From Chitinophagales bacterium (GTDB taxonomy: Bacteria > Bacteroidota > Bacteroidia > Chitinophagales > Chitinophagaceae), in contig JAJPKJ010000035.1 of assembly GCA_021323755.1 (NCBI GenBank), positions 1 through 34,502 of the forward strand: a stretch of 34,502 nt of DNA. Reading direction: 5' to 3'. Within the stretch, counting starts at the first letter, position 1; every line of letters starts with the position of its first letter. Shown here in pieces: positions 2,093 through 32,831 of the stretch. A model generated the notes under the pieces. That model saw only the letters and a list, made by a program, of their open reading frames with translations. It was not told the origin of the DNA and did no database searches. A program made the translations under genes and the position numbers.

Positions 2093-2248
2093 ATGAAGGG
2101 ATCTCGAAAGTTTGTTTTAATACTTATGAGTGGTGGAATAGATTCCACCGCTTGCATCAATTTTTATAAAAAAATGGAATTTAATGTTGAAGGAATTTTC
2201 TTTGACTATGGTCTGGCTTCAAATAAAATTAACTTTAACGAGCTTTGA
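2093..2248 (+). pseudogene. truncated PP-loop ATPase (QueC-like) fragment
   Basis: A 51-codon reading frame begins KFVLILMSGGIDSTACINFY and continues to GIFFDYG before a TGA. SGGIDST is the PP-loop signature of N-type ATP pyrophosphatases, and the following FDYG is typical of QueC-like members, which normally run to 200 residues or more. Only the ATP-binding N-terminus is left. The frame stops 6 nt before the first repeat arm of the cassette array, so the rest of the gene was probably lost when the array formed or moved. It lies 18 nt downstream of hipT and may once have belonged to the same transcript. It could still be translated, but catalytic function is unlikely. Confidence 0.65.
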
Positions 2249-2254
2249 TTATCT

Positions 2255-2304
2255 GCTGACATTTTTCAAATTCCGCCACATCGCCAATGCGAAAAAGTTA
2301 TGCG
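2255..2304 (+). repeat. left arm of cassette 1 (attC-like)
   Basis: Starts with a stretch shared with the later spacer (TTTTTCAAATTCCGCCACA, also at 3059-3077). It then carries the inverted-repeat boxes CGCCAATGCG (2282-2291) and GTTATGCG (2297-2304). Both boxes pair with the sequence directly after the cassette 1 gene: CGCATAAC at 2902-2909 and GCATTGGCG at 2913-2921. Confidence 0.7.
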
Positions 2305-2899
2305 AAATTATATGCGACAGACATTATTTGTTACGTCAATTATCCTTTTAACGAGTTTCAAAACGCAAGACAGTGCAGCTCGTAAAGTACACATTAATGA
2401 CATTGGTTGGACATTTGAAATTCCGTCATCATTGAAGTTTACAGATTCTTCTTTTAATGCAAAAGGTGACATAGACCCAAAACATTTTCAAACAACTTTT
2501 GGACAATTTTCATTGAAAGTCTTTTCGATAAACAATTTTCACAATGGTAGTTTAGATGCATACTTGTGGAACAATGAGCAGGATTCAATTCAATGGAATG
2601 AATATTTTCGAAAAGACGCAAGCTTTTACTTTCAGTCCTTTGCAAAAGTACCAAGTTATAAATTGCTTGACTCAACTTACTCCGAGGAAATAATAAACCA
2701 AAAAAAATTCAAAAGGCAGTACGTCAGATATTATGATAAGAAAGACAACGACACTATCAATCTGTTTCATTATTATTTATTACGCAGTGGTAAATCCAAA
2801 TGCAGTTTTACATTGGACATAAGTTTTGCATTTGCAGATTCAAATTATGGAAAAAAATATTTTAAATTATTGAAGAGTTCAAAGTTCAATGACGACTAA
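2300..2899 (+). CDS. secreted protein of unknown function (cassette 1)
   Basis: 199 residues, not recognised. The N-terminus has basic residues followed by a hydrophobic stretch (LFVTSIILLTSF), so it is probably exported to the periplasm or the outer surface. The mature part is rich in aromatic residues and lysine (for example FRKDASFYFQSFAKVPSYKL, KKFKRQYVRYYDKKDND) and suggests a compact alpha/beta domain. The first ATG lies inside the inverted-repeat box GTTATGCG; a second ATG at 2312 gives a shorter signal peptide and may be the real start. The gene is bracketed by a matching pair of inverted-repeat arms, so it looks like the payload of one mobile cassette. It has no close functional link to its neighbours. 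Confidence 0.65.
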   Translation: MRNYMRQTLFVTSIILLTSFKTQDSAARKVHINDIGWTFEIPSSLKFTDSSFNAKGDIDPKHFQTTFGQFSLKVFSINNFHNGSLDAYLWNNEQDSIQWNEYFRKDASFYFQSFAKVPSYKLLDSTYSEEIINQKKFKRQYVRYYDKKDNDTINLFHYYLLRSGKSKCSFTLDISFAFADSNYGKKYFKLLKSSKFNDD

Positions 2900-2901
2900 T
2901 G

Positions 2902-3103
2902 CGCATAACATTGCATTGGCGCTATGTTGGCGTACCGTACTGCTGGCTTTGGCTTGGGCTAACTATCCAACGTTAATTCCAGCTTGACGTTGGAAATTTA
3001 GGTGTGAATTTATTAATGAACTTTTGTAATTTTATTCAGCATCGGTTGTGGGCTAACGTTTTTCAAATTCCGCCACAAACGCCAATCCGCTAACGTTGGC
3101 TGC
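2902..3103 (+). repeat. attC-like junction between cassettes 1 and 2
   Basis: The 5' part (CGCATAAC-ATT-GCATTGGCG) is the right arm of cassette 1. The 3' part (CGCCAATCCGC at 3080-3090 and GTTGGCTGC at 3095-3103) is the left arm of cassette 2. In the centre, CCAACGT and ACGTTGG form a 7-bp hairpin with a 13-nt loop (about 2969-2995), and a 27-nt block at 3011-3037 recurs exactly at 3782-3808. At roughly 200 bp, the junction is longer than typical attC sites. Confidence 0.65.
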
Positions 3104-3130
3104 CATTTTTTTATGCAATTCTAAAATTAA

Positions 3131-3667
3131 ATGAAACTCATCTTTCTTACATTTTCTTTCATGTGTTTAGCGCTGATTAGTACCAAAAGTCTTGCACAAA
3201 AATCAATTCATAAAATTATTATCAAATCCGCTGTTATACCTGGAAATATTGACACAAACGAAATCAAAAAACTTGATGAGCCTTTAAAAGGATTATTAGC
3301 ACTTTATAGTTCAATGGGTGGGACAAATTGCGATGGAGAAAATTGTGATTTAACGACTGCATTGGGATTGGGTAAGCAGGGGTCCGATGCTCATAAATCC
3401 TTAATTAAAAAATATTTTCCTGATGACAAAGTTGCAAAAGAGGTTCTTGCTCAAGACTGTTATTTAAGACCAAGTGGTGCCTCCACATTTACTGAATATG
3501 AATATTTGACTTTATCAGTCTCGAGTGACACAGTGAAAGTTTATTATCAAAGGTGCTATTATGATCACGGCAAGAGTGGCTGTGTTAAAGGTCCAGATAT
3601 ATATTATTTCCATGACAACAAATATAAAATGCTGAGACGAATATTGTGGAGTCAGTATGACAAATGA
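3131..3667 (+). CDS. secreted cysteine-containing protein of unknown function (cassette 2)
   Basis: 178 residues, not recognised. A clear signal peptide (MKLIFLTFSFMCLALISTKS, then LAQ with probable cleavage before Q23) directs export. The mature protein has five cysteines (NCDGENCD, QDCYL, QRCYYD, SGCVKG), which suggests at least one or two disulfides in the periplasm or outside. A low-complexity turn region (YSSMGGTNCDGENCD) precedes a beta-rich C-terminal half ending in a basic tail. The ATG at 3131 is 27 nt after the left cassette arm, and the right arm starts 5 nt after the stop, so gene and cassette borders almost coincide. There is no operon partner; expression probably depends on read-through or on a promoter within the spacer. 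Confidence 0.7.
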   Translation: MKLIFLTFSFMCLALISTKSLAQKSIHKIIIKSAVIPGNIDTNEIKKLDEPLKGLLALYSSMGGTNCDGENCDLTTALGLGKQGSDAHKSLIKKYFPDDKVAKEVLAQDCYLRPSGASTFTEYEYLTLSVSSDTVKVYYQRCYYDHGKSGCVKGPDIYYFHDNKYKMLRRILWSQYDK

Positions 3668-3672
3668 ATCCT

Positions 3673-3845
3673 GCAGCCAACATTGCGTTGGCGTTACGTC
3701 GGCGGACACTAATGCTTACTTCAACTTCAGCTAACTGTGATTGTTAGTTCCAGTTTGACATTAAAGATTGAGCGAGAATAATATTAATGAACTTTTGTAA
3801 TTTTATTCTGCATTGGTTGTCGGCAGACGTTTACCAATCCAACAA
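3673..3845 (+). repeat. attC-like junction between cassettes 2 and 3
   Basis: The right arm of cassette 2 is GCAGCCAAC (3673-3681), then ATT, then GCGTTGGCG (3685-3693). It pairs with the arm in front of the cassette 2 gene. The first 26 nt from 3679 match the equivalent part of the previous junction (2907-2932) at 22 positions. The shared 27-nt block is at 3782-3808, and a shortened left arm (ACCAATCC, 3833-3840) precedes the third gene. Confidence 0.65.
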
Positions 3846-4256
3846 ATGACAAAACAAAAAGTTTTACTTCTTATTCCTTTGGCAATTATTGCTGGACTTT
3901 TGATTTTTTGTTGGATGACAATTTTATTTACAGACGAAGTTGCGACTTGGCGAAATTATATGGCACTTGCACTTTTTTTTGGACTAATTTATTTATTCTT
4001 TAAGAGTTTCAAAAAGACTCTTCTTGCGACTGGAATTTATTTAATATTTGGCACTTGCAATTTGTTGACAATTACCCCATCAGTTACTACAAATTCTTAT
4101 GGATTGAGAATCGGTTCTATAGAATTGTGGACACCGACATTTCAACCTTTGTCTTTTGGTATTTTGGTACTTTTTTTCGTTCTTAATTTTGACACACTAA
4201 TCAATATCCGACTCGACTATTTAGAAGCTAGACGAGCAAAAAAAGGAAAACAATAA
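3846..4256 (+). CDS. small multi-pass membrane protein of unknown function (cassette 3)
   Basis: 136 residues from the ATG at 3846, not recognised. Hydrophobic segments at about 5-28, 38-53, 57-75 and 97-115 predict four membrane helices in the inner membrane, followed by a short basic cytoplasmic tail (LEARRAKKGKQ). A TTG start at 3813 would extend it by 11 residues, but that stretch lies inside the conserved spacer, so the ATG is preferred. The 3' flank (GACATTACGTTATAA at about 4275-4289) only weakly resembles the right arms of the other cassettes, so this unit may be the degraded end of the array. Confidence 0.6.
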   Translation: MTKQKVLLLIPLAIIAGLLIFCWMTILFTDEVATWRNYMALALFFGLIYLFFKSFKKTLLATGIYLIFGTCNLLTITPSVTTNSYGLRIGSIELWTPTFQPLSFGILVLFFVLNFDTLINIRLDYLEARRAKKGKQ

Positions 4257-4655
4257 TTTGACAAATCTGCAATGAGACATTACGTTATAATTTGAAAATT
4301 GATTTTTTAGATCTATCACTTTCGGAATCGGTCAATTAATTTCCCAAAAGAAAAGATTCGGTGTGCCACTTTATTAGCGAAGCTACTCTTGGGGAAGCTT
4401 ACAAATGACTTTTATTAAGCAAGCTGGCACTATCAAAGCTAAAATTGACGGTTTTTGGTCGGACTAAACCTGCTTGTAATTTCAGGTCATTAACTTCCCG
4501 AAAACGGGGTACCTACTGATTTACTGGTTTTGGTATCTGTCTTCCAAAATATCATTAATAATTGTTCTAAAATCCTATTTTCAACTTCTATATCTTTAAT
4601 GCTCTCTTTTATCGACCAATGATTTTTAAAACCAACTGCAAACAACTTTTCATCA
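4257..4655. other. 399-bp intergenic stretch without a supported gene
   Basis: A degenerate cassette-like end may lie at about 4275-4289. Beyond that I see no gene, strong hairpin or repeat. A short minus-strand reading frame (4490-4681, 63 codons) runs into the acyltransferase start and has no recognisable domain. The stretch probably holds the acyltransferase promoter, which I could not place. Confidence 0.4.
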
Positions 4656-5777
4656 ATGAGAACTGATGCACTGATCACCAAACCTCATTATGCTATTCTT
4701 GACGGACTTCGGGGTGTAGCATCCATAATGGTGGTCGCCTTTCATATTTTTGAAGCTCATTCTACGAGTCACCTTGACCAAATAATAAATCATGGTTACC
4801 TGGCAGTAGATTTTTTCTTTGTCCTTTCAGGTTTTGTTGTCGGATATGCTTATGATGATCGCTGGAATAAGATGACGATAAAGGATTTTTTTAAGATCCG
4901 CCTGATCAGACTTCAACCAATGGTGGTGATCGGCATGATAATAGGCGCAGCCTGTTTTTATTTTCAGGATTCCGCAATGTGGCCAACCATACACCAGGTG
5001 CCTGTATGGAAGATGCTCCTGATCATGTTGATCGGATTTACTTTGATCCCTGTGCCGATATCGATGGATAACCGTGGGTGGCAGGAAATGCATCCATTAA
5101 ATGGCCCCGGCTGGTCTTTGTTCTTTGAATATATCGCAAATATTCTCTACGGCCTTTTTATAAAGAATTTTTCCCGGACCGCACTTTCCATATTGGTCTT
5201 TGTGTCTGCTTGCGCATTGATACATTTAGCTGTAACCAGTCCGGCCGGCGATATTATTGGCGGATGGTCAATCGATGCCACACAATTGCGCATCGGCATT
5301 ACCCGCGTGATGTATCCTTTTTTTGCAGGCTTGCTGCTTTCCCGAACCGTTAAACTGATACAGTTCAGCAATGCTTTTTTATGGACCAGTCTCTTAGTGA
5401 TCATTGTTTTTTCTATTCCAAGAATCGGCGGCAGCGAACATTTATGGCTCAATGGCCTCTATGATTCTCTCACTGTTATTTTGATCTTTCCTTTGATTGT
5501 TTTTTTAGGAGCAAGCGGAACAATTACCGGGAAAATATCATCCCGCATATGTAAGTTAGTCGGGGACATCTCCTATCCAATATATATCACGCATTATCCG
5601 CTGATATATATTTATACAGGATGGGTGAGTAATCACAAAACCACAATAGCCCAAGCATTGCCTTTCGCCCTGCTGACTTTTGTGTCAAGCATCTTACTCG
5701 GCTATGTTTGCCTGAAGTTTTATGATGAACCGATTAGACGATGGCTAAAAAAGAAAGTCCTGATTAAGAGTAAATAA
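4656..5777 (+). CDS. OafA/YrhL-type membrane O-acyltransferase (acyltransferase 3 family)
   Basis: 373 residues with many hydrophobic segments spread over the length. The family start ILDGLRGVASIMVVAFHIFE is clear, with H30 as the expected catalytic histidine, followed by VDFFFVLSGFVVGYAY. These inner-membrane enzymes transfer acetyl or other acyl groups to surface sugars, such as O-antigen, exopolysaccharide or peptidoglycan; the acceptor cannot be predicted. The length is normal for a family member without an extra periplasmic SGNH domain. It stands alone on the plus strand, ends 8 nt before a strong terminator hairpin, and is convergent with the next gene. The ATG is chosen because it gives the short N-terminus usual for the family. 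Confidence 0.87.
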   Translation: MRTDALITKPHYAILDGLRGVASIMVVAFHIFEAHSTSHLDQIINHGYLAVDFFFVLSGFVVGYAYDDRWNKMTIKDFFKIRLIRLQPMVVIGMIIGAACFYFQDSAMWPTIHQVPVWKMLLIMLIGFTLIPVPISMDNRGWQEMHPLNGPGWSLFFEYIANILYGLFIKNFSRTALSILVFVSACALIHLAVTSPAGDIIGGWSIDATQLRIGITRVMYPFFAGLLLSRTVKLIQFSNAFLWTSLLVIIVFSIPRIGGSEHLWLNGLYDSLTVILIFPLIVFLGASGTITGKISSRICKLVGDISYPIYITHYPLIYIYTGWVSNHKTTIAQALPFALLTFVSSILLGYVCLKFYDEPIRRWLKKKVLIKSK

Positions 5778-10660: not shown

Positions 10661-11752
10661 ATGAAAACGATCAAACAGCACATGCTTCTTTTATTGGTGA
10701 TTGCCCTTGCTATTGGCTTTTCTTCTTGCAGTAAAAGTGGTACCGCGAAGTCAAACAAATCAACCGTTACCGTCTCTACATTTGCAGGCAGTGGTACAAT
10801 GGGTTCTGCCAACGGTACCGGTACCGCCGCAAGCTTTCTCTATCCTTCCGGAATAGTCAGCAGCGGAAATGGCGCTTTGTATATCGGTGACTTTGGAAAT
10901 AACCTGATTCGCACCATCAATATCAGCAGTGCCGCTGTAAATATTGTGGCCGGCACAGGAACTGCCGGTTTGATCAATGGATCTGTCACGGCAGCAGAAT
11001 TCAACGGACCAGCAAACATTGCCTTGGATGCAAGCGGTGACCTGTTTATCTCAGATGAAGAAAATAATGTTATTCGTGAAATTACGAGCGCAGGCAATGT
11101 AAGCACGGTTGCCGGCGCCGGCATAGCCGGGTACCAGGATGGTGCTGCGGGTACGGCGGAATTCAACTTTCCCGAAGGCATCGTCGTTGATGCTAACGGT
11201 GATCTATATGTGGCCGACGGGCATAATAGCGTCATTCGCAAGATCACCATGTCAACCGGGATGGTAAGCACCTATGCAGGCATCGCAGGCACGACCGGTT
11301 TTGCAAATGGTGCGGCGAGCAGCGCCACTTTCAATGAGCCCTACGGGTTAGCATTGGATAATAGCGGAAATCTTTATGTCACAGACATTCTAAATAATAG
11401 TATCCGCAAGATCACGGTATCCACAAACACGGTAAGTACTTATGCCGGTACCGGAACCAAAGGTTTCAGTAATGGAACTGCAGCGACCGCCACTTTTTAT
11501 TACCCGCTGGGTTGTGTATTAGATTCACAGGGCAACTTATATGTGAGTGACACCTACAATAATGTTATCCGTAAAGTTTCAACAAGCGGGAACGTTACCA
11601 CTTTTGCAGGGACCGGAGCACAGGGCTCAGCAGATGGTGACGCCGCCTCTGCAACGTTTAATTTTCCAATTGGCATATCGGTTTATGGAAACGCCGTTTT
11701 CGTAGCAGATACCCACAATAATGTAATTCGTAAAATCACCATCGGTCAGTGA
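10661..11752 (+). CDS. NHL-repeat lipoprotein
   Basis: 363 residues. A lipoprotein signal peptide ends in the lipobox FSSC with lipidated C23 (MLLLLVIALAIGFSSC), so the protein is anchored in the inner or outer membrane. Residues 35-363 hold six repeats of about 54 residues of the form 'VSTxAGTGTxGxxNG...ATFxxPxGIxxDxxGNLYVxDxxNNxIRKIT', which predicts a six-bladed NHL beta-propeller. Such propellers bind proteins, sugars or act in extracellular adhesion; no catalytic residues are visible. It lies 220 bp behind the response regulator with no obvious terminator in between, so it may be co-transcribed or controlled by it. It ends before a clear terminator. Confidence 0.87.
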   Translation: MKTIKQHMLLLLVIALAIGFSSCSKSGTAKSNKSTVTVSTFAGSGTMGSANGTGTAASFLYPSGIVSSGNGALYIGDFGNNLIRTINISSAAVNIVAGTGTAGLINGSVTAAEFNGPANIALDASGDLFISDEENNVIREITSAGNVSTVAGAGIAGYQDGAAGTAEFNFPEGIVVDANGDLYVADGHNSVIRKITMSTGMVSTYAGIAGTTGFANGAASSATFNEPYGLALDNSGNLYVTDILNNSIRKITVSTNTVSTYAGTGTKGFSNGTAATATFYYPLGCVLDSQGNLYVSDTYNNVIRKVSTSGNVTTFAGTGAQGSADGDAASATFNFPIGISVYGNAVFVADTHNNVIRKITIGQ

Positions 11753-22135: not shown

Positions 22136-25100
22136 TTAAACTGCTTTTAATTCTGTTTGGTCCCGCAATGCGTTCTTAAGAAATTCTTTTTGTGATGTGC
22201 GCTCGTCAAGCACTTTTTGCAGAATACGGGCAAAGGCTTTGTCGTAAGGGGGATACAAGAATGTTTTGTGATCGCCGGGAGTTATATGCGTTGAAATTCC
22301 TTTTTTGGCAAAAGGTTTCCAGCCAAGATATTCCATATCATCAAGATAATATAGTCGCGTCTTTACTTTGAACAGATCAATTAGTCCATCATATGGTGTC
22401 ATTTTATAATTGCGATACGCATAATCATATCGTTCTGCCAGTTTATCATCATTCCCTTTTTCTTCATTCGGGTTTTCTTTTTTCATGGGTCCGAAAAGCT
22501 TTTTAAACTTTCGTCCAAAAAACTCGGCCTGGTAGGAGAATGTTGGTCCCGGATTTCTAAAGAATGAACGCAGAATGAATATCATCTTCGGAACCTGACG
22601 ACTGATCTTTTTCCTGATCTTAACCACTCTTTCGTCAAAATAATCAGAGTTGTCTGCATTGGTGTCGAACATGGCCAGCATTTTGATCTCTTTTCCCAAA
22701 GCCTTCAGTTGCTTGGCCATTTCAAAAGCGATAATGCCCCCAAAAGAATATCCTGCCAGTGCAAATGAATCGCCCGGATTGCGTGCCAATATCTCAGAAA
22801 TATAATGCGCAGCGATGTCTTCCATTTTATCAAAGGATTCATCTGCACTTTTTAATCCCCGCGCTTGTAAAGCATAAACCGGTTGATCCTCATCCATATT
22901 TTTTGCAAGTGTATTGAATAACAACACATTCATTCCAAATCCATGAACAATGTAAATGGGCATTTTATTGCCGCTCGGTTTAACAGGAACCAATGAATCC
23001 CAGGTAATGGATTTTTCATCTTTCTCAACAAGCAAGGATAATTTTTCGATAGTAGGCGCTTCGAGCAAACTGGCGAGCGGCATGCGCCTGCCGGTTTCTT
23101 TTTCCAGGCGCGTCATTGCCTGTACAGCAATCAGGGAATGCCCTCCCAATTCAAAAAAATCATCATTGACACCGACTTGTTTTAAATTCAACACATCCGC
23201 CCAAATGTTCGCAATTATTTTTTCTGTTTCAGTTCGCGGAGCAACATATTTTCTTTCTCCGCCTTCTGAGACCTGCGTTGGTTTTGGTAACGCATTTCTG
23301 TCGATTTTTCCATTGGGGGTCAAGGGAAGTTTTTCCAACAATATGAAATCTGCAGGGATCATATAATCCGGCACCAATTCCTTCAGTGCTTTTTTCCATT
23401 TATTGAACTGCTCCAATTGCAATTTCGGATCCCCCATCAGTTTTTGGGTATGATCACCAACAATATAAGCATACAGCCTTTCATTCCATGCAAGAACAAC
23501 AGCCTCTTTGATGCCGCTCTGATTAATAAGCCCCTGCTCTATCTCTCCCAATTCAATTCTATAACCCCGGATTTTTACCTGGTGATCTATTCTGCCCAGA
23601 CATTGGATTTCTCCATTCTCCAAGAATTTTCCCAGATCACCGGTGCGATACATTTTTTCTCCTGCCTTATCAGAAAATGAATTATTGAGAAATCTTTCGC
23701 GCGTAAGTTCATCGCGATTCAAATAACCCCTTGCAACACCATCACCCGCAATAAATATTTCTCCTATCGCAGCCTCCGGAAGCGCATTCAGATCCTCATC
23801 AAGAATATAAACCTGCGTATTGTCAATCGGCCTTCCGATGGTGATGATCTCATCATCAGCCTTGATCTGTTTTAGCGTTGACCAAATGGTGGTCTCTGTT
23901 GGTCCATACATATTCCAAAAAGAACTGCATCGGACAATCAATTTATCTGCAATATCTTTTGGTAATCCCTCACCCCCACATAAAATTTTCAGATCAAATT
24001 TTTTCTGCCAGTCTGCATTCAGCATCATTCGCCAAGTTGAGGGAGTTGCCTGCATCACCGTGATATTGTCATCTTCTATCACTTCTAGCAATTGACGCCC
24101 GTCTTTGGCTGTCTCTGCATCAGCAATTATTAATTCTGCTCCACTTATTAAAGGCAGGTATAGTTCGAGCCCGGCGATATCAAAAGAAATAGTAGTGATC
24201 GCAAGCAGTTTATCCTCGGCTTTTATCCCGGGCGCTTTTTGCATGCTCAATAGAAAATTAACCAGGCTGTGATGTTCGATCTGCACCCCTTTGGGATTTC
24301 CTGTCGAGCCGGATGTGTACAAGATGTAAGCAAGATCCTTTCCGTTGAGAGAAACCTTTACCTCCTGGTTTGAAATGGAATTTGTTTTTTTCCAAACATC
24401 CTCGATGAGTATTTCTTTTGTTTTTGCATGAAAACGTCCCTTATATTTTTGAGATGTCAATAAGATCTTGGTAGAAGAATCATTGAGCATGAACTCAATT
24501 CTTTTTTGCGGAAACCCCGGATCCATTGGAATATACGCCGCACCTGATTTCATTATGGCCAATAATGAAATCAACATTTCCAGCGATCTGTCAACAGCAA
24601 GTCCGATGACATCTCCCCGTTGAATATTGTTCTCCAATAATACCAGGGCAACCTTATTGGTGATGTCCTCCAGTTCCTGGTAGGTAATGCTGCGATCGCC
24701 AAAGCGGGCAGCAATCTTTTTTGGAAATTTTTTTACCGTTTCACTGATAATATCGGTCAATGATTTTTCTTTGGGATAATCAACTTCCGTATCATTCCAT
24801 TTTTTGAGTTTGGCGCCCAATTCATTTTGAGTACGCCGCGGAATATCCTTTACATGAACCTGCGGATTTTGAACGATCGCTTCCAACAAGAATTCAAAAT
24901 CATCCATCATCCTTTTTATTGAGGATGGTTTGAATAATTGGGTGTTGTATGACCATTCCAGCGTGAGCGCTTGCTCCGAACCGCTTGCATTCAGAAATAT
25001 TTCAAAATTCTCATACTCGCGCGGATTATAGACCAGTTTGTGTCGCAATTCATAAAAGCCCACTCCGTCATCCAAACCCATATCGATATTAAATATCACC

Positions 25101-26215
25101 GGGACCAGCGGCATGCGCGATGGATCACGTTGAATATTGAGTTTCTTTAATAGACTTCCGAATGTGAATTGCTGATGATCGTAGTCATTGAGCACTTTTG
25201 ATTTCCTTTGCTTCAGATATTCAATAAAGGACTGTTCCCCTTCATGATAACTTCTTAATGGAAGAAGGTTCACGCAATGACCGACCAATGCATAATGACC
25301 GGTTGCGGATTGCCCGGCAGTGGGCAGCCCGATCACAATATCATTCTGAGATGTCAGCCGGTACATGAAAACTTCAAATGCAGTAAGCAATGTGGTGACA
25401 AAACTGCAACCGGCCTTCGCCCCTATTTTTTTTACTGCATTAACCAATTCGACATTTAACTGATAATCGTCGCGCTGACTTTTATAGGTTCTTAATGGAG
25501 GGCGGGGAAAATCTGTTGGCACATTTAGTACGGGGACATTATGTTTATATTCATCGACCCAATACTGTTCCGTTTTTTTGTACTCCGGCGTCTCAGAAAA
25601 TTTCAAATACTCACTGGCATATTCACTGAATTGAAATGCCTGGGGTAAATTGGGAGTTTCTTTTTTTGCATAAGCAGAATAGATCTTACTAAGATCCTGT
25701 AACAAAATACCCAGGGACCATCCATCGCATACGATATGATGCGCCGTGATTTTTAGATAATGTTCTTTTTCAGATAATTTGAATAATGCGATCCTGAATA
25801 ACGGCCCATTTAAAAGATCAAAACAAGTGGATGCATCATTTTTTGAAAAAGCATTAATGAAGGCTTGCTGATCGCTCTCATTCTTTGAAGAAAGATCTTC
25901 AAAAGTGAGATTCACCGGTAATTCCTTGTAAATGCATATCTGTTTCCCATCGCCACTGAATGAAGAACGCAATGCCTCATGACGATTAACAATATCCTGC
26001 AATGCTGATTCCATCGCCTGCTGGTAAAAAGTTCCTGACAAGCGAAGCGAAACAGATTCGTTGTACGCACGGTTAGCATCTTCGCCACCTATTGCACAGG
26101 AAACCCAAATCTCCAATTGTGATTCTGTGGCGGGGGCGAGCTTGGTGATCTCGGGACCTCCGAATGGGTCGAAATCAACGGGCTGAAACACTTCTATATT
26201 TTCTTTTTTCTTCAA
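22136..26215 (-). CDS. NRPS, C-A-PCP-TE (terminal module, glycine-type A domain)
   Basis: 1359 residues. Condensation domain about 25-465 with HHIVCDG (159-165). Adenylation domain about 480-975 with LYTSGSTGNPKG, YRTGD and K970. Carrier domain about 990-1065 with phosphopantetheine serine S1027 (FFELGGHSL). Type I thioesterase about 1085-1335 with S1157 (GYSFGG), D1184 and H1316. Reading the A-domain pocket by alignment to GrsA gives D679-I680-L683-Q722-L745-G747-M769-I777-W778-K970; DILQLGxIWK is the known glycine code. The protein should therefore condense the aminoacyl-polyketide from the upstream enzyme with glycine and release it. It starts 10 nt after the preceding gene. The N-terminal 25 residues before the C domain replace an in-line linker. 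No epimerisation or methylation domain is present. Confidence 0.93.
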   Translation of the reverse strand: MKKKENIEVFQPVDFDPFGGPEITKLAPATESQLEIWVSCAIGGEDANRAYNESVSLRLSGTFYQQAMESALQDIVNRHEALRSSFSGDGKQICIYKELPVNLTFEDLSSKNESDQQAFINAFSKNDASTCFDLLNGPLFRIALFKLSEKEHYLKITAHHIVCDGWSLGILLQDLSKIYSAYAKKETPNLPQAFQFSEYASEYLKFSETPEYKKTEQYWVDEYKHNVPVLNVPTDFPRPPLRTYKSQRDDYQLNVELVNAVKKIGAKAGCSFVTTLLTAFEVFMYRLTSQNDIVIGLPTAGQSATGHYALVGHCVNLLPLRSYHEGEQSFIEYLKQRKSKVLNDYDHQQFTFGSLLKKLNIQRDPSRMPLVPVIFNIDMGLDDGVGFYELRHKLVYNPREYENFEIFLNASGSEQALTLEWSYNTQLFKPSSIKRMMDDFEFLLEAIVQNPQVHVKDIPRRTQNELGAKLKKWNDTEVDYPKEKSLTDIISETVKKFPKKIAARFGDRSITYQELEDITNKVALVLLENNIQRGDVIGLAVDRSLEMLISLLAIMKSGAAYIPMDPGFPQKRIEFMLNDSSTKILLTSQKYKGRFHAKTKEILIEDVWKKTNSISNQEVKVSLNGKDLAYILYTSGSTGNPKGVQIEHHSLVNFLLSMQKAPGIKAEDKLLAITTISFDIAGLELYLPLISGAELIIADAETAKDGRQLLEVIEDDNITVMQATPSTWRMMLNADWQKKFDLKILCGGEGLPKDIADKLIVRCSSFWNMYGPTETTIWSTLKQIKADDEIITIGRPIDNTQVYILDEDLNALPEAAIGEIFIAGDGVARGYLNRDELTRERFLNNSFSDKAGEKMYRTGDLGKFLENGEIQCLGRIDHQVKIRGYRIELGEIEQGLINQSGIKEAVVLAWNERLYAYIVGDHTQKLMGDPKLQLEQFNKWKKALKELVPDYMIPADFILLEKLPLTPNGKIDRNALPKPTQVSEGGERKYVAPRTETEKIIANIWADVLNLKQVGVNDDFFELGGHSLIAVQAMTRLEKETGRRMPLASLLEAPTIEKLSLLVEKDEKSITWDSLVPVKPSGNKMPIYIVHGFGMNVLLFNTLAKNMDEDQPVYALQARGLKSADESFDKMEDIAAHYISEILARNPGDSFALAGYSFGGIIAFEMAKQLKALGKEIKMLAMFDTNADNSDYFDERVVKIRKKISRQVPKMIFILRSFFRNPGPTFSYQAEFFGRKFKKLFGPMKKENPNEEKGNDDKLAERYDYAYRNYKMTPYDGLIDLFKVKTRLYYLDDMEYLGWKPFAKKGISTHITPGDHKTFLYPPYDKAFARILQKVLDERTSQKEFLKNALRDQTELKAV

Positions 26216-26225
26216 ACGATTTTTT

Positions 26226-29200
26226 TTAATTCACCTGCAAATATTTTCCTGGCCGATTTGGATCCATAATGAACCATGCCGGATTGCCATCTTTGTCTTT
26301 ACCCAGTTTGGCTCCGGGTACCGGTGGTGCATCCAAGGTCTTGTGCGCACCGTTTGTTGCGCCATTGGTCTTGGAAGACGGAAAAAATTCTCCCTTCACT
26401 AATTCATTCAAACTCTCTTCAAATTTTTGAACGATCATATGCACATCATCGGTCGTGTGCGCTTCGGTAAGAAAACAAGGAAATCCATCCTGAATATGAA
26501 TTCCTTTGTGTCGCATTAATGTAAAGAGCAACTCGCTATAAGGAATCTCCTCTTTAAATTTTATTTTCCATAACGAACCGAACTGTGCAATATAGATCGG
26601 TAATTCCATTTTATAACAAATGGCATTGAGTGCATCAGCCATTTTCTTTGTTTTGTCACTTAATGCCTGCTGTAATGCGGGACCTTTCGCCTTCATATAT
26701 TCCAGGGAAGCTTTCGCCGTGGCCAATGCCAAAGGATGGCGAACAAAAGTCCCTGCGAAATAGGTTACCCCCACTTCCGGCGTAGAGGAGTCGCCAAAAC
26801 TCCAGAAGCCACCATCAAGTGCATCCATAAATTGCTTTTTACCCGCAATAATGCCGATGGAAATTCCCGCGCCAACCACTTTCCCATAGGTCCCCAGATC
26901 AGCTTTTACCCCAAATAATTCCTGCGCTCCACCCGGATGCATCCTGAATCCGGTGATCACTTCATCAAATATCAACGCGGTTCCTGACTCTTCGGTTATC
27001 TCTCTCACTTTCTTTAAAAAATCAACCGGCTGGAATTCCGGTCTGCGACTCTGAACTGGCTCAACCAGCACCGCCGCCAATTCGTGCGCACGTTCTTTGA
27101 TGATCTTCAGACTTTCATCTGTGCCGTAGTCTAAAATAAGCATATTTTGAACAGCCTCCGGCATTATACCCGGTGCAGCAGGAAAGGATTTTAACTTTTT
27201 TGTCCCGCGAACGATCACTTCATCAACAATGCCATGATAGGACCCTGAAAACGCAACAATGGTTGAGCGACCGGTTACCGTCCTGGCGATACGCATCGCA
27301 CCGAGCACGGCTTCCGAACACGTGTTGCACAATGCCGCTCTGTCAGAATTCGTGAACTCGCAGATAAGTTTGCTCACATCGCCAGCCAACTCATGCTGCG
27401 GACCTACTTCATATCCTTTTTCGATTTGCTGTTTTAGAGCACTGGTAATAAAGTCAGGTTGGTATCCAAACATGTTTGAACCAAAACCATTCAGCGCATC
27501 AACATATTCATTGCCGTCAATATCCCAAAGACGAGAACCCTTCGAACGGTTCACCACCAGCGGATAAACAACTTCTTTCGTTAATGGCCGGAAGCCGGAG
27601 ACCACGCGTGGATCTGCCATATATGCGCGATGCTGTTGCGTATAGGTTTTGCTGTTTTTTGTTTTTTGATTATAGTTCCTGATGAGATCATCAAGAAAGG
27701 TTTGCTGCGTTGCATTCAATTTTGTCGCCTGCTTTTCGATCTTTGCCGTTGCACCAAATGGCTTTTTTAATTCCACCATTTCTTCTGCAGATAATCCTGC
27801 CTCTGTCATTTTCTTTTCAAGTGGCGGTTTACTCGATTGTGGAGCGGGGGTGGCAACGGAATTAACCGGAGCTGCATTATTTCCCTGCAATAAGGCTACC
27901 TGCTGCGCAAGTAACTGTATCTGTTGCGTAATAAGATTGATCGCGTTGTTATTGCCAGCGACAGGTGCAGCTGAAATCTGCGCTGCAACGGGCTGCTGGG
28001 CTTGCGCTTTTTCTTTGGGAAGATTAGCATCAAGATAATCGGCAAGCAGATCCAGACTTCCATATTCTTCCGTAAGTTGTCTGAAGGTTATGGGTAGCCC
28101 AAACTCTTTTTTCAGATTCAATGCAATTTGGGTTAATAGCAATGAATCAAGCCCGATCTCAATAAAGGTCATATCCGGAGTCACGCCTTCCATTTCAATA
28201 CCGGAAGCATTCTCCAATATTCCTTTCACCTGTTCAATCAATGCGTCTTTTCTCATAATATTATTTTGTGTAGATGTGTTTTCAAGATGATTATTGGCCT
28301 GTGGGTTTTGAATATCCGTTGAAATATCAAGGATCGGCTGTGCATTACCGTTAGTAACATTATTTACAACCGGGTTTACCCAATAAACATTTTTCTCGAA
28401 TGCATAATTCGGTAAATGCAATTTAAGCCGTTGCTGACCTTTATAAAATGATTCCCAGTCCAACCCAATTCCATTAAGCCATAATTGGCCAACCGCTTTT
28501 AAAATAGAATAATATTCAGACTGACCTTCTGAAATATCCAGACTTGGAATGGCAACAGATATTTTCTTTGCAGCCTGCTGGCGAACCAAGGATGCAGTGA
28601 CATTTTTCGGACCCATTTCCAGGATCAGTTTATTATCTTCTTCTAAAACTGTCGCCACAGCGTCAGCAAAGCGAACCGTGGAACGAAGATGGGCAGCCCA
28701 GTATGCCGGATCGGTGGCATCCGCATCTGTCAGCCATTTTCCGGTAACAGTGGATACGATCGGTAATCGGGGTAAACTCAATTTAACTTGTTTCACTATT
28801 TCTTCAAATGGTTTCACGATCGGATCCATCATGGAAGAATGAAACGCATGACTTGTTAATAGTACCCTGTTCGAAATATTTTTTTCAGAAAGCAATTTTG
28901 AAAAATCAGCGATCGAATCAATGGGTCCCGCAATTACACATGAACCAGGACTATTAATGACTGCAAGAGACAGATCATTGGTTAATAAATTTGAGATCCT
29001 TTCATAATCAGACCGAACGGCAAGCATGCTTCCACGAGGTAATGCTGCCATCATCCGCCCGCGGGTCGCGATCAATTTCAGTCCATCTCTTAAACTGAAA
29101 ACGCCTGCAAAATGAGCGGCGACAAATTCACCGATGCTATGCCCGACAAATGCATTGGGCTGCAAGCCCCAACTCATCCAGAGTCTGGCAGTCGCATATT

Positions 29201-32200
29201 CGATCACAAAGATTGCCGGCTGCGTATAATAAGTGTTATTTATCTTTTCTTCAGCTTCTTTATCACTATTTTTTGGATATATAATATCCCGGATATCTTC
29301 ATTCAGGGTTTCTTCCAGCAATGATGCACACTCGTCAACGGCATCGCGAAAGACAGGTTCATCTCGGTACAATTCAATCCCCATATTCACATATTGCGAC
29401 CCCTGTCCCGGGAACATGAAAACAATCTCACTTAGATTATCTTTTAACTGTTTGGATTCTGTTGGAAGAACTGCAGATGAATTCAATATCCCGATCAACT
29501 CTTTATTATCAGCAGCAATTACAAAACGACGGAAATTAAAATCCTGGCGGGTGGTGTTTAGCGTATAGGCGATATCAGCTGTATTGACGTTTGGATCTTT
29601 TTCGACCCAGCCTGCAAGTCTTTTTGCAAAAGCTTCCCTGCTGTTTGCGGTCTTTGCCGACCAGTTTATTAATTGCCAATGCCGTGATCCTCCGGATTGC
29701 CGGGGGATATTTTCATATTCTTCCACTACAACATGCACATTTGTTCCACCCACACCGAATGAACTTACTCCCGCAATTCTCTTATTCTTCACATTCCAAT
29801 CCCGGAATTTATCATTTACAAAAAATGAACTGTTCGCAAAGTCAATATTTGGATTTGGTTTTTTGAAATTGATCGAAGGCAGTAATTTTTTATTATGCAA
29901 CGAAAGAACGGTCTTGATGAAACCCGCTACACCGGAAGCTGCCGTAAGATGCCCCATATTGCTTTTGACAGAGCCGATCGCACAAAATTGTTTTTTTTCC
30001 TGATTGCCAAAGGCAATATTCAGTCCTTCAATTTCAATCGGATCGCCGAGAGGGGTCGCCGTTCCATGGGTCTCCACATAACTGATGTCCGCAGCAGGAA
30101 TTCCTGAATCCTGGATCGCCAAGGCAATCGCCCCAGCTTGTCCTTCTGCACTGGGCGCAGTGAAACTTCCTTTCCCGCCACCGTCATTATTAACACCGAT
30201 ACCTTTGATGATCGCATAGATCTTATCGCCGTCACGTTCCGCATCCTCCCTGCTTTTTAATAAAACAGCGCCAGCTCCATCGCTAAATACTGTTCCTTGC
30301 GCATCGATATCAAAAGACCGGCAATGCCCATCCCGGCTAAGCATCGCACCATCCTGGTAAATATGCCCGCTCTTAAGGGGAGAGGTAATGGCAACGCCGC
30401 CGGCGATGGCGACATCACATTTGCCACCGCGAATATTTTCAACAGCCTGCGTAATGGCCAATAAAGAAGTTGAACACGCAGAATATACACTCACTGCAGG
30501 CCCATTTAAATTTAGCTGATAAGCAGTGCGGGAAGCAACATAGTCTTTTTCGTTAAATGTCATTACCTGGAAACTTCCCATTCTTTCAACAAGCACTTTA
30601 TTTGAAAGCACATTATTGAGATAATAAGAATTATTTCCCGAGCCGGCGAATATCCCAATGGAACCCGAATATCTCTGTGGAAGATAACCGGTGTTTTCCA
30701 AGAGTTCCCAAACCACTTCCAAAAATATTCTTTGTTGCGGATCCATCAACTCAGCCAATTTTGGATTGATACCAAAAAAAGCAGGATCAAATTTGTCCGC
30801 ATCATCTATCAATCCGCGTGCGCTGACGTAATCAGGATCGTTCTTTATTTCAGTTGGGATAAATGGATCAAGTTCTTCTTTGGTAAAAAAAGAAATTGTT
30901 TCTTTTCCTTCTTTTAAAATATTCCATAGCTCCGCAATTGTGTTCGCGCCGGGAAAACGACCCGCCATCCCAATTACCGCAACATCGCCATTTTGATTTG
31001 ATCTTGATTTTTTCTGGTTGATTTTTGATTCCGGTCTTTTTGAACCTTCAAGATGTTTTACAATTTCATGTATGGTCGGATATTGATATAATTTTGTGAT
31101 AGGCAAATTGATTTTATGATGCAATTTGAGATCGGCCACTGTTTTGACAGCAAGCAAAGAATTACCGCCCAGTTCAAAAAAATTATCATTGACGCCGACT
31201 TTATCCAACTGCAATAGTGAAGCCCACAAGGACGCCATTATTTTTTCTGTCTTACCGACAGGCGCTTTGTACAGAACGGCCAATTCAGGTCTTTTGATCT
31301 CTGGTTTTGGCAATGCTTTCTTATCAATCTTTCCGCTCGTCGTTTTCGGCAATACCTCCATCCACACAAAAGCAGAAGGAATCATATAATCAGGCAGATG
31401 TTGCTCTACAGATTTTCTTAATGACGCGGTATCTTTTTTATTATCCGAAGAAACAAGATAGGCAACAAGGCGTTTTTGCCCGGGGATATCCTCCCGTGCA
31501 ACAACAACAGCCTGCTGAATATTTTTTTGATGATTCAATAAGACTTCGATTTCTCCCAACTCAACCCGGTAACCGCGGATCTTTACCTGGTCATCTTTTC
31601 TTCCTAAAAATTCAATATTGCCATCAGGCATATAACGGGCATGGTCACCTGTTCTATAGATCTTTTGAAAGTTGTTATTGGCATTTTTCCAGTCAATGAA
31701 TTTTTCTGCAGTTAACTCGGGGCGATTAAGATAACCATCTGCCAAACAGATCCCCGCAATACATAATTCGCCGATCTCGCCCTTGGGTAATGCATTTAAA
31801 TGCTCATCGAGAATGAGCATCTCGGTATTATCAATTGCTTTACCAATAGAAGGCAAAGCCGGCCAGGAAGCAGGATCACCCTCGAGTTTTAATTCAGTGA
31901 CCACATGACATTCGGTTGGCCCGTATTGATTATACAAAATTGCATCAGGTAAAGCTTTAAAGAAACCAATAACCTGCGGCGTGATCTTTAATTGCTCGCC
32001 GGCTGTCATTACTTCCTGTAATGAAGAAGGAAAGAACTGGTTTGCATCTGCAGCTTCGGTCAGGTATTGCAAAGCGACGAAAGGAACAAAAATCCTGTTT
32101 ATTTTTTCTTGCTGAATAAAATTCAAAAGACTTTGCGGATCAAGACGAAGATCATCTTCTATCAATACCAGCGTTCCTCCTGTTGTTAATGTCGCAAATA

Positions 32201-32831
32201 TTTCCTGGAAGGAAACATCAAAACTCAAAGGTGCAAACTGTAAGGTCTTGGTGCCGATGCCAGCGCTTGAATGCTTTTGTTGCCACAACAATAAATTTAC
32301 CAGGGGCCGGTGCCCCATGCAAACCCCTTTTGGTTTTCCGGTTGAACCTGAGGTATAAAGAACGTAAGCAAGATGCGCATCTGGCTGTTGGTTCTTCCCA
32401 ACAGTTTTATAACCATCATCCAAATTCAAAACAGACACACCAAAAGATTTGAATAATGATGATTCTTTTTTTAATGATAGACAAGAGTCAATTCCGGAGT
32501 CACTCACAATTTGTTGCAATCGATCTTCCGGATAGGTCGGATCGAGGGGTAAATAGGCTTTGCCTGATTTTAAGATGGCCAGAACGCCGATGATTGTTTC
32601 AATACTCCGCGTCGTGCTTATTCCAATGATCGAAGAAACGGGAGAATTCTTTGAAATATTCTCAGCAAGTAGGTTTGCTTGTTCATTCAACTCGTCATAG
32701 CTTATCGTCTTTTGGCCAAAACAAATAGCCACCAAATCCTTTACTTCTGAAAGCCTATGCTCAAAAAGCTCATGGATGAGGCCAATATTTTCATTATTCC
32801 CAAAAGATATCTTTTCAAATGAACTATTCAT
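26226..32831 (-). CDS. hybrid NRPS-PKS: A-PCP-KS-AT-ACP-aminotransferase
   Basis: 2201 residues. Loading A domain about 15-510 (LYTSGSTGKPKG, YRTGD, K501); PCP about 520-595 (S558). KS about 615-1040 with C786, H922 and H961. AT about 1135-1425 with GHSIGE (S1232) and malonyl-type HAFH (1328-1331). ACP about 1530-1600 (S1563). A Gln/Ala/Pro-rich linker at 1605-1665 follows, then a class III PLP aminotransferase about 1735-2145 with D1956 and Schiff-base lysine K1984 (TYGKVVGAG). No KR, DH or ER. The A pocket reads DVQFMAQVVK, close to proline codes. Expected chemistry is loading of Pro, one malonyl extension, and beta-transamination of the keto group, as in mycosubtilin or microcystin type synthases. 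It ends in GNPAWFIMDPNRPGKYLQVN, which in related synthases appears to be an internal linker before a C domain. Confidence 0.93.
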   Translation of the reverse strand: MNSSFEKISFGNNENIGLIHELFEHRLSEVKDLVAICFGQKTISYDELNEQANLLAENISKNSPVSSIIGISTTRSIETIIGVLAILKSGKAYLPLDPTYPEDRLQQIVSDSGIDSCLSLKKESSLFKSFGVSVLNLDDGYKTVGKNQQPDAHLAYVLYTSGSTGKPKGVCMGHRPLVNLLLWQQKHSSAGIGTKTLQFAPLSFDVSFQEIFATLTTGGTLVLIEDDLRLDPQSLLNFIQQEKINRIFVPFVALQYLTEAADANQFFPSSLQEVMTAGEQLKITPQVIGFFKALPDAILYNQYGPTECHVVTELKLEGDPASWPALPSIGKAIDNTEMLILDEHLNALPKGEIGELCIAGICLADGYLNRPELTAEKFIDWKNANNNFQKIYRTGDHARYMPDGNIEFLGRKDDQVKIRGYRVELGEIEVLLNHQKNIQQAVVVAREDIPGQKRLVAYLVSSDNKKDTASLRKSVEQHLPDYMIPSAFVWMEVLPKTTSGKIDKKALPKPEIKRPELAVLYKAPVGKTEKIMASLWASLLQLDKVGVNDNFFELGGNSLLAVKTVADLKLHHKINLPITKLYQYPTIHEIVKHLEGSKRPESKINQKKSRSNQNGDVAVIGMAGRFPGANTIAELWNILKEGKETISFFTKEELDPFIPTEIKNDPDYVSARGLIDDADKFDPAFFGINPKLAELMDPQQRIFLEVVWELLENTGYLPQRYSGSIGIFAGSGNNSYYLNNVLSNKVLVERMGSFQVMTFNEKDYVASRTAYQLNLNGPAVSVYSACSTSLLAITQAVENIRGGKCDVAIAGGVAITSPLKSGHIYQDGAMLSRDGHCRSFDIDAQGTVFSDGAGAVLLKSREDAERDGDKIYAIIKGIGVNNDGGGKGSFTAPSAEGQAGAIALAIQDSGIPAADISYVETHGTATPLGDPIEIEGLNIAFGNQEKKQFCAIGSVKSNMGHLTAASGVAGFIKTVLSLHNKKLLPSINFKKPNPNIDFANSSFFVNDKFRDWNVKNKRIAGVSSFGVGGTNVHVVVEEYENIPRQSGGSRHWQLINWSAKTANSREAFAKRLAGWVEKDPNVNTADIAYTLNTTRQDFNFRRFVIAADNKELIGILNSSAVLPTESKQLKDNLSEIVFMFPGQGSQYVNMGIELYRDEPVFRDAVDECASLLEETLNEDIRDIIYPKNSDKEAEEKINNTYYTQPAIFVIEYATARLWMSWGLQPNAFVGHSIGEFVAAHFAGVFSLRDGLKLIATRGRMMAALPRGSMLAVRSDYERISNLLTNDLSLAVINSPGSCVIAGPIDSIADFSKLLSEKNISNRVLLTSHAFHSSMMDPIVKPFEEIVKQVKLSLPRLPIVSTVTGKWLTDADATDPAYWAAHLRSTVRFADAVATVLEEDNKLILEMGPKNVTASLVRQQAAKKISVAIPSLDISEGQSEYYSILKAVGQLWLNGIGLDWESFYKGQQRLKLHLPNYAFEKNVYWVNPVVNNVTNGNAQPILDISTDIQNPQANNHLENTSTQNNIMRKDALIEQVKGILENASGIEMEGVTPDMTFIEIGLDSLLLTQIALNLKKEFGLPITFRQLTEEYGSLDLLADYLDANLPKEKAQAQQPVAAQISAAPVAGNNNAINLITQQIQLLAQQVALLQGNNAAPVNSVATPAPQSSKPPLEKKMTEAGLSAEEMVELKKPFGATAKIEKQATKLNATQQTFLDDLIRNYNQKTKNSKTYTQQHRAYMADPRVVSGFRPLTKEVVYPLVVNRSKGSRLWDIDGNEYVDALNGFGSNMFGYQPDFITSALKQQIEKGYEVGPQHELAGDVSKLICEFTNSDRAALCNTCSEAVLGAMRIARTVTGRSTIVAFSGSYHGIVDEVIVRGTKKLKSFPAAPGIMPEAVQNMLILDYGTDESLKIIKERAHELAAVLVEPVQSRRPEFQPVDFLKKVREITEESGTALIFDEVITGFRMHPGGAQELFGVKADLGTYGKVVGAGISIGIIAGKKQFMDALDGGFWSFGDSSTPEVGVTYFAGTFVRHPLALATAKASLEYMKAKGPALQQALSDKTKKMADALNAICYKMELPIYIAQFGSLWKIKFKEEIPYSELLFTLMRHKGIHIQDGFPCFLTEAHTTDDVHMIVQKFEESLNELVKGEFFPSSKTNGATNGAHKTLDAPPVPGAKLGKDKDGNPAWFIMDPNRPGKYLQVN

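Follow-up and report, generated by a model that had tools for sequence, protein, structure and literature searches.

Closest described systems and the window

Canonical integrons combine an integrase (IntI), an entry site (attI) and a series of co-oriented one-gene cassettes that end in attC recombination sites. In this layout the outer boxes of a cassette, R' at its start and R'' at its end, are complementary to each other and meet only in the excised circle. The subject of this study is a short cassette array in a window of 34,502 nucleotides from a Chitinophagales bacterium, which is contig C75 of the 4.08-Mb assembly G000; "window" refers throughout to this whole stretch. With its two cassettes, one complete site and two broken ones, the array is very probably what remains, without an integrase, of an integron-like system whose recombinase is distinct. 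That system looks like a distinct, widespread variant of the integron.

The insertion that characterizes integron integrases (I2) is, according to PMC7790495, required for cassette capture, confers single-strand recombination and occurs in no other protein. Among the simple tyrosine recombinases, Smyshlyaev et al. (2021, PMC8138268) recognize an integron-like subgroup with incomplete conservation of the insertion, which they nevertheless call essential for integron function. According to two further papers, the attC sites best excised by IntI1 carry T-N6-G extrahelical bases (PMC3053210), and the IntI-specific domain serves as a criterion in integron searches (PMC9668308). For Bacteroidetes proper, IntegronFinder 2 (PMC9024848) mentions earlier In0 elements and one complete integron, that of Salinibacter ruber, in addition to the integrons of Chlorobi and Ignavibacteriae. 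Among the matches listed by a literature search whose reach ended before preprints and most subscription papers, none describes arrays of this kind paired with a recombinase other than IntI in these bacteria.

Compared with canonical integrons, including the control array L160 from the same phylum, the system shares co-oriented one-gene cassettes with their own R'/R'' complementarity, a site built as R, spacer and stem, a GTT crossover and a candidate attI-like entry site. It differs in a recombinase without the IntI insertion and with an extra N-terminal domain, which is encoded on the cassette strand, whereas the L160 recombinase is divergent. Its sites also depart from the canonical form: the uninterrupted stem is longer, wobble asymmetry substitutes for most extrahelical bases, and there are three site lengths. 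Judged by description, the recombinase shares an Xer-like two-domain core with the integron-like simple tyrosine recombinases, although the text of PMC8138268 on members without the insertion describes no cassette arrays for them. Unlike archaeal XerA (PDB 4a8e, 5hxy), to which matches cover the core, it has an N-terminal extension outside those matches. The G000 arrays are in the state of a cluster of attC sites lacking an integrase (CALIN), but the recombinase of their relatives is not a canonical IntI. The features of the window array, with protein lengths in amino acids (aa), are as follows.

2093..2248, forward strand: truncated QueC-like reading frame, 51 aa plus stop, fused to the array start
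2230..2296, forward strand: half site at the array start, the right part of an attC-like junction
2282-2291: box before gene 1, CGCCAATGCG
2297-2304: second box before gene 1, GTTATGCG
2297..2306, forward strand: R' box at the start of cassette 1, GTTATGCGAA
2300..2899, forward strand: cassette 1 gene, 199 aa, no Pfam family
2900..2909, forward strand: R'' box closing cassette 1, 9/10 positions complement those of its own R'
2902-2909: CGCATAAC, 3' of gene 1, then ATT at 2910-2912 and GCATTGGCG at 2913-2921
2910..3094, forward strand: complete attC-like site J1, 185 bp
3080-3090: box before gene 2, CGCCAATCCGC
3095-3103: second box before gene 2, GTTGGCTGC
3095..3104, forward strand: R' box at the start of cassette 2, GTTGGCTGCC
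3131..3667, forward strand: cassette 2 gene, 178 aa, single Pfam match at E 0.034, far below cut-off
3672..3681, forward strand: R'' box closing cassette 2, 9/10 positions complement those of its own R'
3673-3681: GCAGCCAAC, 3' of gene 2, then ATT at 3682-3684 and GCGTTGGCG at 3685-3693
3682..about 3840, forward strand: attC-like site J2, its right end (CCGCC..CGCCAATGCG..GTT) gone
3846..4256, forward strand: gene 3, 136 aa counted from ATG, 3' of the broken J2, no Pfam match

Matching cassette ends and a second array

All boxes quoted by an earlier sequence-only reading of this DNA are present in the window, and J1, at 185 bp between its boxes, fits the 170-200 bp given there for the whole junction. 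The reading also reported no integrase, and none was seen among the open reading frames (ORFs) of the window. When G000 was searched with J1, about ten matches, all on the same strand, fell between 72 and 84 kb of contig C20 and revealed another array. The 15 kb read there (locus L030) hold about 15 small genes on one strand, mostly flanked by two such junctions, so other small genes do lie between like sites, as had been suggested for checking.

The claim that the outer boxes vary together with their own cassette is borne out. For the two window cassettes and the 13 of about 16 L030 cassettes with both ends placed, 94 of 105 positions after GTT agree between a cassette's own ends; when the partners were permuted 100,000 times, the mean was 60 and the maximum 84, and no permutation reached 94. 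Across one junction, R'' and the R' of the next cassette pair at a mean of only 3.5 of 7 positions. Complementarity within a cassette would arise because R' and R'' both become arms of one hairpin in the circle.

The companion claim, that the inner boxes co-vary with the cassette, is not supported. Over nine sites of the C20 array, left arms pair best within their own junction, with a mean energy of -20.2 kcal/mol, compared with -15.7 kcal/mol against the junction upstream of their own cassette and -12.8 kcal/mol against others. Inner arms pair within the junction, and outer ends pair within the cassette. In the window the inner boxes of cassette 1 do match perfectly, as the reading had seen, but those of cassette 2 do not. 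At E 0.01 or better, no Pfam family was matched by either window cassette protein (2/2) or by 6 of 10 further scanned G000 array proteins. One site of the second array (L030 13800-14340) is interrupted and seems by eye to hold a piece of a broken IS110-type transposase.

A tyrosine recombinase upstream of the arrays in relatives

A tyrosine recombinase beside the arrays, another feature proposed for checking, is found in relatives of G000, where it lies upstream of the arrays on the cassette strand. In the genus relative G170, the gene precedes about ten cassettes on the same strand. Within 33 genomes of the genus, the recombinase occurs in 5 and sites matching R1, the covariance model described below, in 8; all 5 genomes with the recombinase have sites, and 25 have neither. 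The probability of this overlap by chance, ancestry ignored, is 56 in 237,336. The three genomes with sites and no recombinase match are G000, G127 and G161, and the recombinase profile met only two Xer-like proteins in G000, neither match reaching the N-terminal domain. Across a phylum sample of 395 genomes, the recombinase family was matched in 53 of the window's class, and a canonical integron integrase was detected in one genome of that class.

The loci examined were drawn from recombinase matches, not at random. The cassettes of 22 array loci largely share the strand of the recombinase (135 of 142 ORFs). Tiled arrays comprise 4-11 cassettes with exact 9-nucleotide (nt) ends, compared with at most 3 in controls in which bases were shuffled within 100-bp blocks; cassette counts are approximate, because a few chains hold false members (for example, inside L067 and L103). 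The first detected cassette lies 45-132 bp behind the recombinase stop codon in 9 of the 18 loci where this distance was measured, the recombinase not having been located by script in the other 4 of the 22. Among the hallmarks of an integron platform, tandem one-gene cassettes in one orientation are present, a recombinase beside the array is present in relatives and absent from G000, and the recombinase is co-directional with the array rather than divergent. Some canonical integrons are also co-directional, so orientation is not decisive. Two further observations concern individual loci. Near an array end, L102 carries a ParE-like toxin frame with a small neighbouring frame (4171-4714) and, upstream of its recombinase, two frames of similar size (10918-11488). 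In G170, an inverted partial copy of the recombinase coding region lies upstream of the recombinase (L067 15400-15620), which may be either an assembly fold-back or a real inversion.

Alignments indicate that this protein is a recombinase without the ~40-residue I2 insertion and with an extra N-terminal domain. The aligned spacing from the catalytic lysine to the HxLRH motif is 63-66 in 40/40 new rows and 105 in 14/14 IntI rows, of which only 5 are independent on spacing because 9 were chosen by it. Measured by motif, the spacing is 64-67 in the 28 of 40 new rows in which both motifs were found and 107 in 6/6 IntI rows. In a tree of rows cut to their last 310 residues, with one Xer protein as outgroup and a midpoint root, the 14 IntI rows fall on one side of a 100/100 branch and the 40 new rows outside it. 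The G170 recombinase matches TIGR02249 with 174 bits in two stretches, below the 265-bit cut-off, and no canonical IntI exceeding that cut-off was found in 147 family genomes (0/147).

The N-terminal domain alone gave no match at E 0.001 or better in a fold search. Its Pfam links are weak, to DUF5710 in 12 of 20 members (best 3.9e-5, below cut-off) and to HARP in 3 of 20 (best 1.1e-4). None of the 80 viral matches listed covers the N-terminal domain, giving no link to phages, and a match covers 80% or more of the query in only 2 of 263 matching plasmid records. A Chryseobacterium plasmid (NZ_CP041688.1, L326 8980-14300) encodes the recombinase, followed by a small number of cassette-like genes; cassette-like ends are visible by eye, and the chain of 3 found there is not above shuffles (5).

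Structure of the attC-like sites

The covariance model R1 was built from nine sites, J1 among them, and finds 76 sites at E 1e-5 or better (the nine builders included) in 23 sources, namely G000 and relatives. In these sites, 90.6% of 1,531 cells are paired, and double changes occur in 21 of 23 pairs (301 cells). Slid partners pair at most 42%, a control that weighs more than the raw 90.6% because the alignment was fitted to the structure. J1 scores 196 bits over 2901-3103 and has DNA-level matches with sites in the C20 array; J2, which lay outside the model-building set, scores 134 bits over 3673-3869. The half site gives a weak match (2102-2305, 31.8 bits), and its positions 2230-2280 repeat 3027-3077 directly at 76%. 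Applied to short sites of other families, R1 yields 12 weak matches in 20 loci, the best at E 2.5e-5.

A wider set of 122 sites comes from 20 array loci selected for having chains. The arms of these sites have a median of 19 paired positions, versus 11 for arms taken from different loci. As in attC, an AAC/GTT core is accompanied by complementary R''/R' boxes of one cassette, and an unpaired spacer separates the R and L stems. The left spacer measures 2-3 nt in 75 sites and the right one 5-6 nt in 84; in all nine sites of the canonical array L160, they measure 1-2 and 5-6 nt. The median length of the first unbroken stem block is 16 columns (51 sites have 16-20 and 35 have 8 or fewer), compared with 3-7 columns in 9/9 canonical L160 sites. 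In the main G000 type, two bulged bases can be seen by eye (TT[A]TGT[C]GG).

Lengths from AAC to GTT in the 122 sites fall at 52-57 bp (13 sites), 111-125 bp (57 sites, 15 loci) and 176-190 bp (39 sites, 13 loci), with 13 elsewhere. The modes, at 53, 118 and 183 bp, are spaced by about 65 bp, as seen in L103, L104, L125, L130, L177 and others; 11 of 13 sites of 50-60 bp come from the single locus L177. The canonical L160 sites measure 76, 98, 110 (four times), 115 (twice) and 119 bp. Many long sites also contain a GG[CG]N0-2GAC motif near positions 20, 70 and 140.

Probable traces of movement

Exact duplications support the cassette behaviour that had been proposed for these genes. In L103, a cassette and its site occur twice, 475 bp at 100%, with identity running from CGTT to CGTT between unlike flanks. 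In L130, the cassette at 18,825 has a second copy (99.8%) 16 kb distant at 2,506, immediately behind the recombinase, and another cassette stands in tandem. Other long repeats, with less clean breaks, occur in L133 and L134. The L103 and L130 duplications have the form that would be expected as the residue of excision and of insertion at an attI-like site. In 8 loci picked by eye, the interval from the recombinase stop codon to the first cassette contains such a candidate site, GCGTATATTTATG-GTTG or a related sequence, and the L130 cassette copy occupies that position. The exact form found in G160 occurs at one other place among 327 loci, inside the second G000 array (L030 11169-11190), which suggests that G000 once had the recombinase and may since have lost it. 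Within the window, the literal attI-like motif has 3 matches, versus a chance expectation of 2.5.

Proposed mechanism and alternative explanations

Complete copies of the system would consist of a recombinase related to integron integrases and archaeal XerA, placed upstream of the array on the same strand. The mobile unit would be one gene with its downstream site (near 54, 118 or 183 bp). Recombination at the GTT core between two such sites would excise a cassette, and recombination between a cassette site and the attI-like site behind the recombinase gene would insert one. This recombinase probably acts on the arrays itself, and the GTT cores are most likely joined on folded bottom strands. 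The sequences directly show the arrays, their matching ends, the conserved stem, the place and direction of the recombinase gene, the duplications that break at GTT and the first-position copy of a cassette; the acting enzyme, its folded bottom-strand substrate and the loss of the recombinase from G000 are inferred from them.

Several observations weigh against this account. The insertion held to be necessary for single-strand recombination is absent from 40/40 rows. Among 20 recombinase loci drawn from one-contig genomes of the phylum, only 7 have a chain of 4 or more cassettes above shuffles, and none of the 5 whose recombinase is under 300 aa does. Of 80 named loci among the matches listed, only 12 have such a chain, 4 of them exceeding shuffles by one; those with chains include Seonamhaeicola aphaedonensis, Algibacter onchidii and Rufibacter sp. 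SYSU D00344. At 9 of 18 loci, the recombinase and the first detected cassette are 301-5,017 bp apart. Counted under one set of alignment penalties, a net left-arm excess occurs in only 30 of 122 sites (right excess 40, no extra base 38), whereas all nine canonical L160 sites have it. Whole-site folding of J1 is not better than shuffles (z -0.50), with J2 at z -2.83. In two clear cross-genus cassette pairs (L030 7110-7672 with L103 15158-15721, and L067 12765-13445 with L103 14294-14978), the partners have the gene and both ends in common, whereas their sites differ; similarity ends at AACATT, with identities of 84% for G170/G068 and about 76% for G000/G068. Simple cassette transfer would leave these pairs unexplained. 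Finally, the case for recombination is drawn from sequence comparison.

A bolder reading, held to be somewhat less likely than not, is a second, class-wide kind of integron, in which an Xer/IntI relative without I2 would recombine folded strands. Strand choice would depend mainly on G-T wobbles 9-12 and 14-15 nt after AAC, replacing extrahelical bases. The N-terminal DUF5710/HARP-like domain may grip the hairpin in I2's stead, and site length would change in ~65-bp steps.

Because I2 is missing, the same cassette system might instead be served by a recombinase acting in an Xer-like manner on double-stranded or cruciform sites, with the palindromes binding two monomers. Consistent with this, the recombinase lacks the integron-integrase insertion, and its core fits archaeal XerA, a chromosome-dimer recombinase, no less closely than IntI4. 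A net surplus of left-arm bases is missing from 92 of 122 sites, and the ~65-bp length steps correspond to roughly six helical turns. Against this, 84 of the 106 stems of 100 bp or more fold better as the bottom strand. In the 92 stems left after 14 were dropped for low alignment score, G-T pairs are bottom-strand-only in 169 cases and top-strand-only in 59, and the preference is for the bottom strand in 63 stems, for the top in 6 and tied in 23. The strand asymmetry is carried mainly by wobble pairs, which on the bottom strand cluster at the two stem places named above and would be unneeded for double-stranded recognition. The R''-spacer-stem layout, with spacers mostly of 2-3 and 5-6 nt, is likewise close to the canonical 1-2 and 5-6 nt. 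Double-strand action is considered unlikely, and folded bottom strands remain the more probable substrate.

A plain CALIN, in which attC sites of a canonical integron persist after loss of intI, would account for the R and spacer layout shared with L160 and for the failure to find an integrase in G000. It is very improbable, as canonical IntI is absent from all 147 family genomes and present in one class genome of the phylum sample, R1 finds nothing better than E 0.11 on 10 canonical loci, and the 5 of 33 genus genomes with the other kind of recombinase all have sites. The sequence-only reading had offered an attC cluster without integrase as one possibility, which is half right. The integrase-less cluster stands, but a canonical integron origin is disfavoured, the relatives' recombinase not being a canonical IntI. 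Its other suggestion, a different hairpin-recognised system of Bacteroidota, was half right: the system does differ from canonical integrons, while the arrays here are an integrase-less cluster. Dispersed palindromes of the repetitive extragenic palindromic (REP) or miniature inverted-repeat transposable element (MITE) type, scattered between unrelated genes without cassette mobility, would fit sites that are palindromic and alike within one genome, but are scarcely credible given the gene-specific matching ends, single orientation and recombinase adjacency, and are already contradicted by exact gene-and-site duplications with breakpoints at GTT.

Neighbouring features of the window

The QueC-like frame fused to the array start matches Pfam QueC at 1.5e-5, its residues 9-42 aligning with profile positions 3-36 of 210. 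Gene 3, behind the broken J2, may be a degenerate cassette or a host gene because no R'/R'' boxes of its own were seen. Directly 5' of the array, positions 340-2074 hold a helix-turn-helix regulator and HipA-like genes in split form, with Couple_hipA and HipA_C domains. Positions 22136-32831 are taken up by a pair of very long reading frames (1,359 and 2,201 aa) that may encode nonribosomal peptide synthetase (NRPS) and polyketide synthase (PKS)/NRPS modules. An Rfam scan of the window gave a single match, a tRNA cut by the window start.

Significance

A cassette system without I2 would imply either another route to the recombination of folded single strands or a state that preceded the insertion, and so offers a direct test of how integrons work. 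Integron searches based on the IntI-specific domain are expected to miss this system because its recombinase lacks that domain. Finding such arrays would uncover a large hidden pool of mobile genes.

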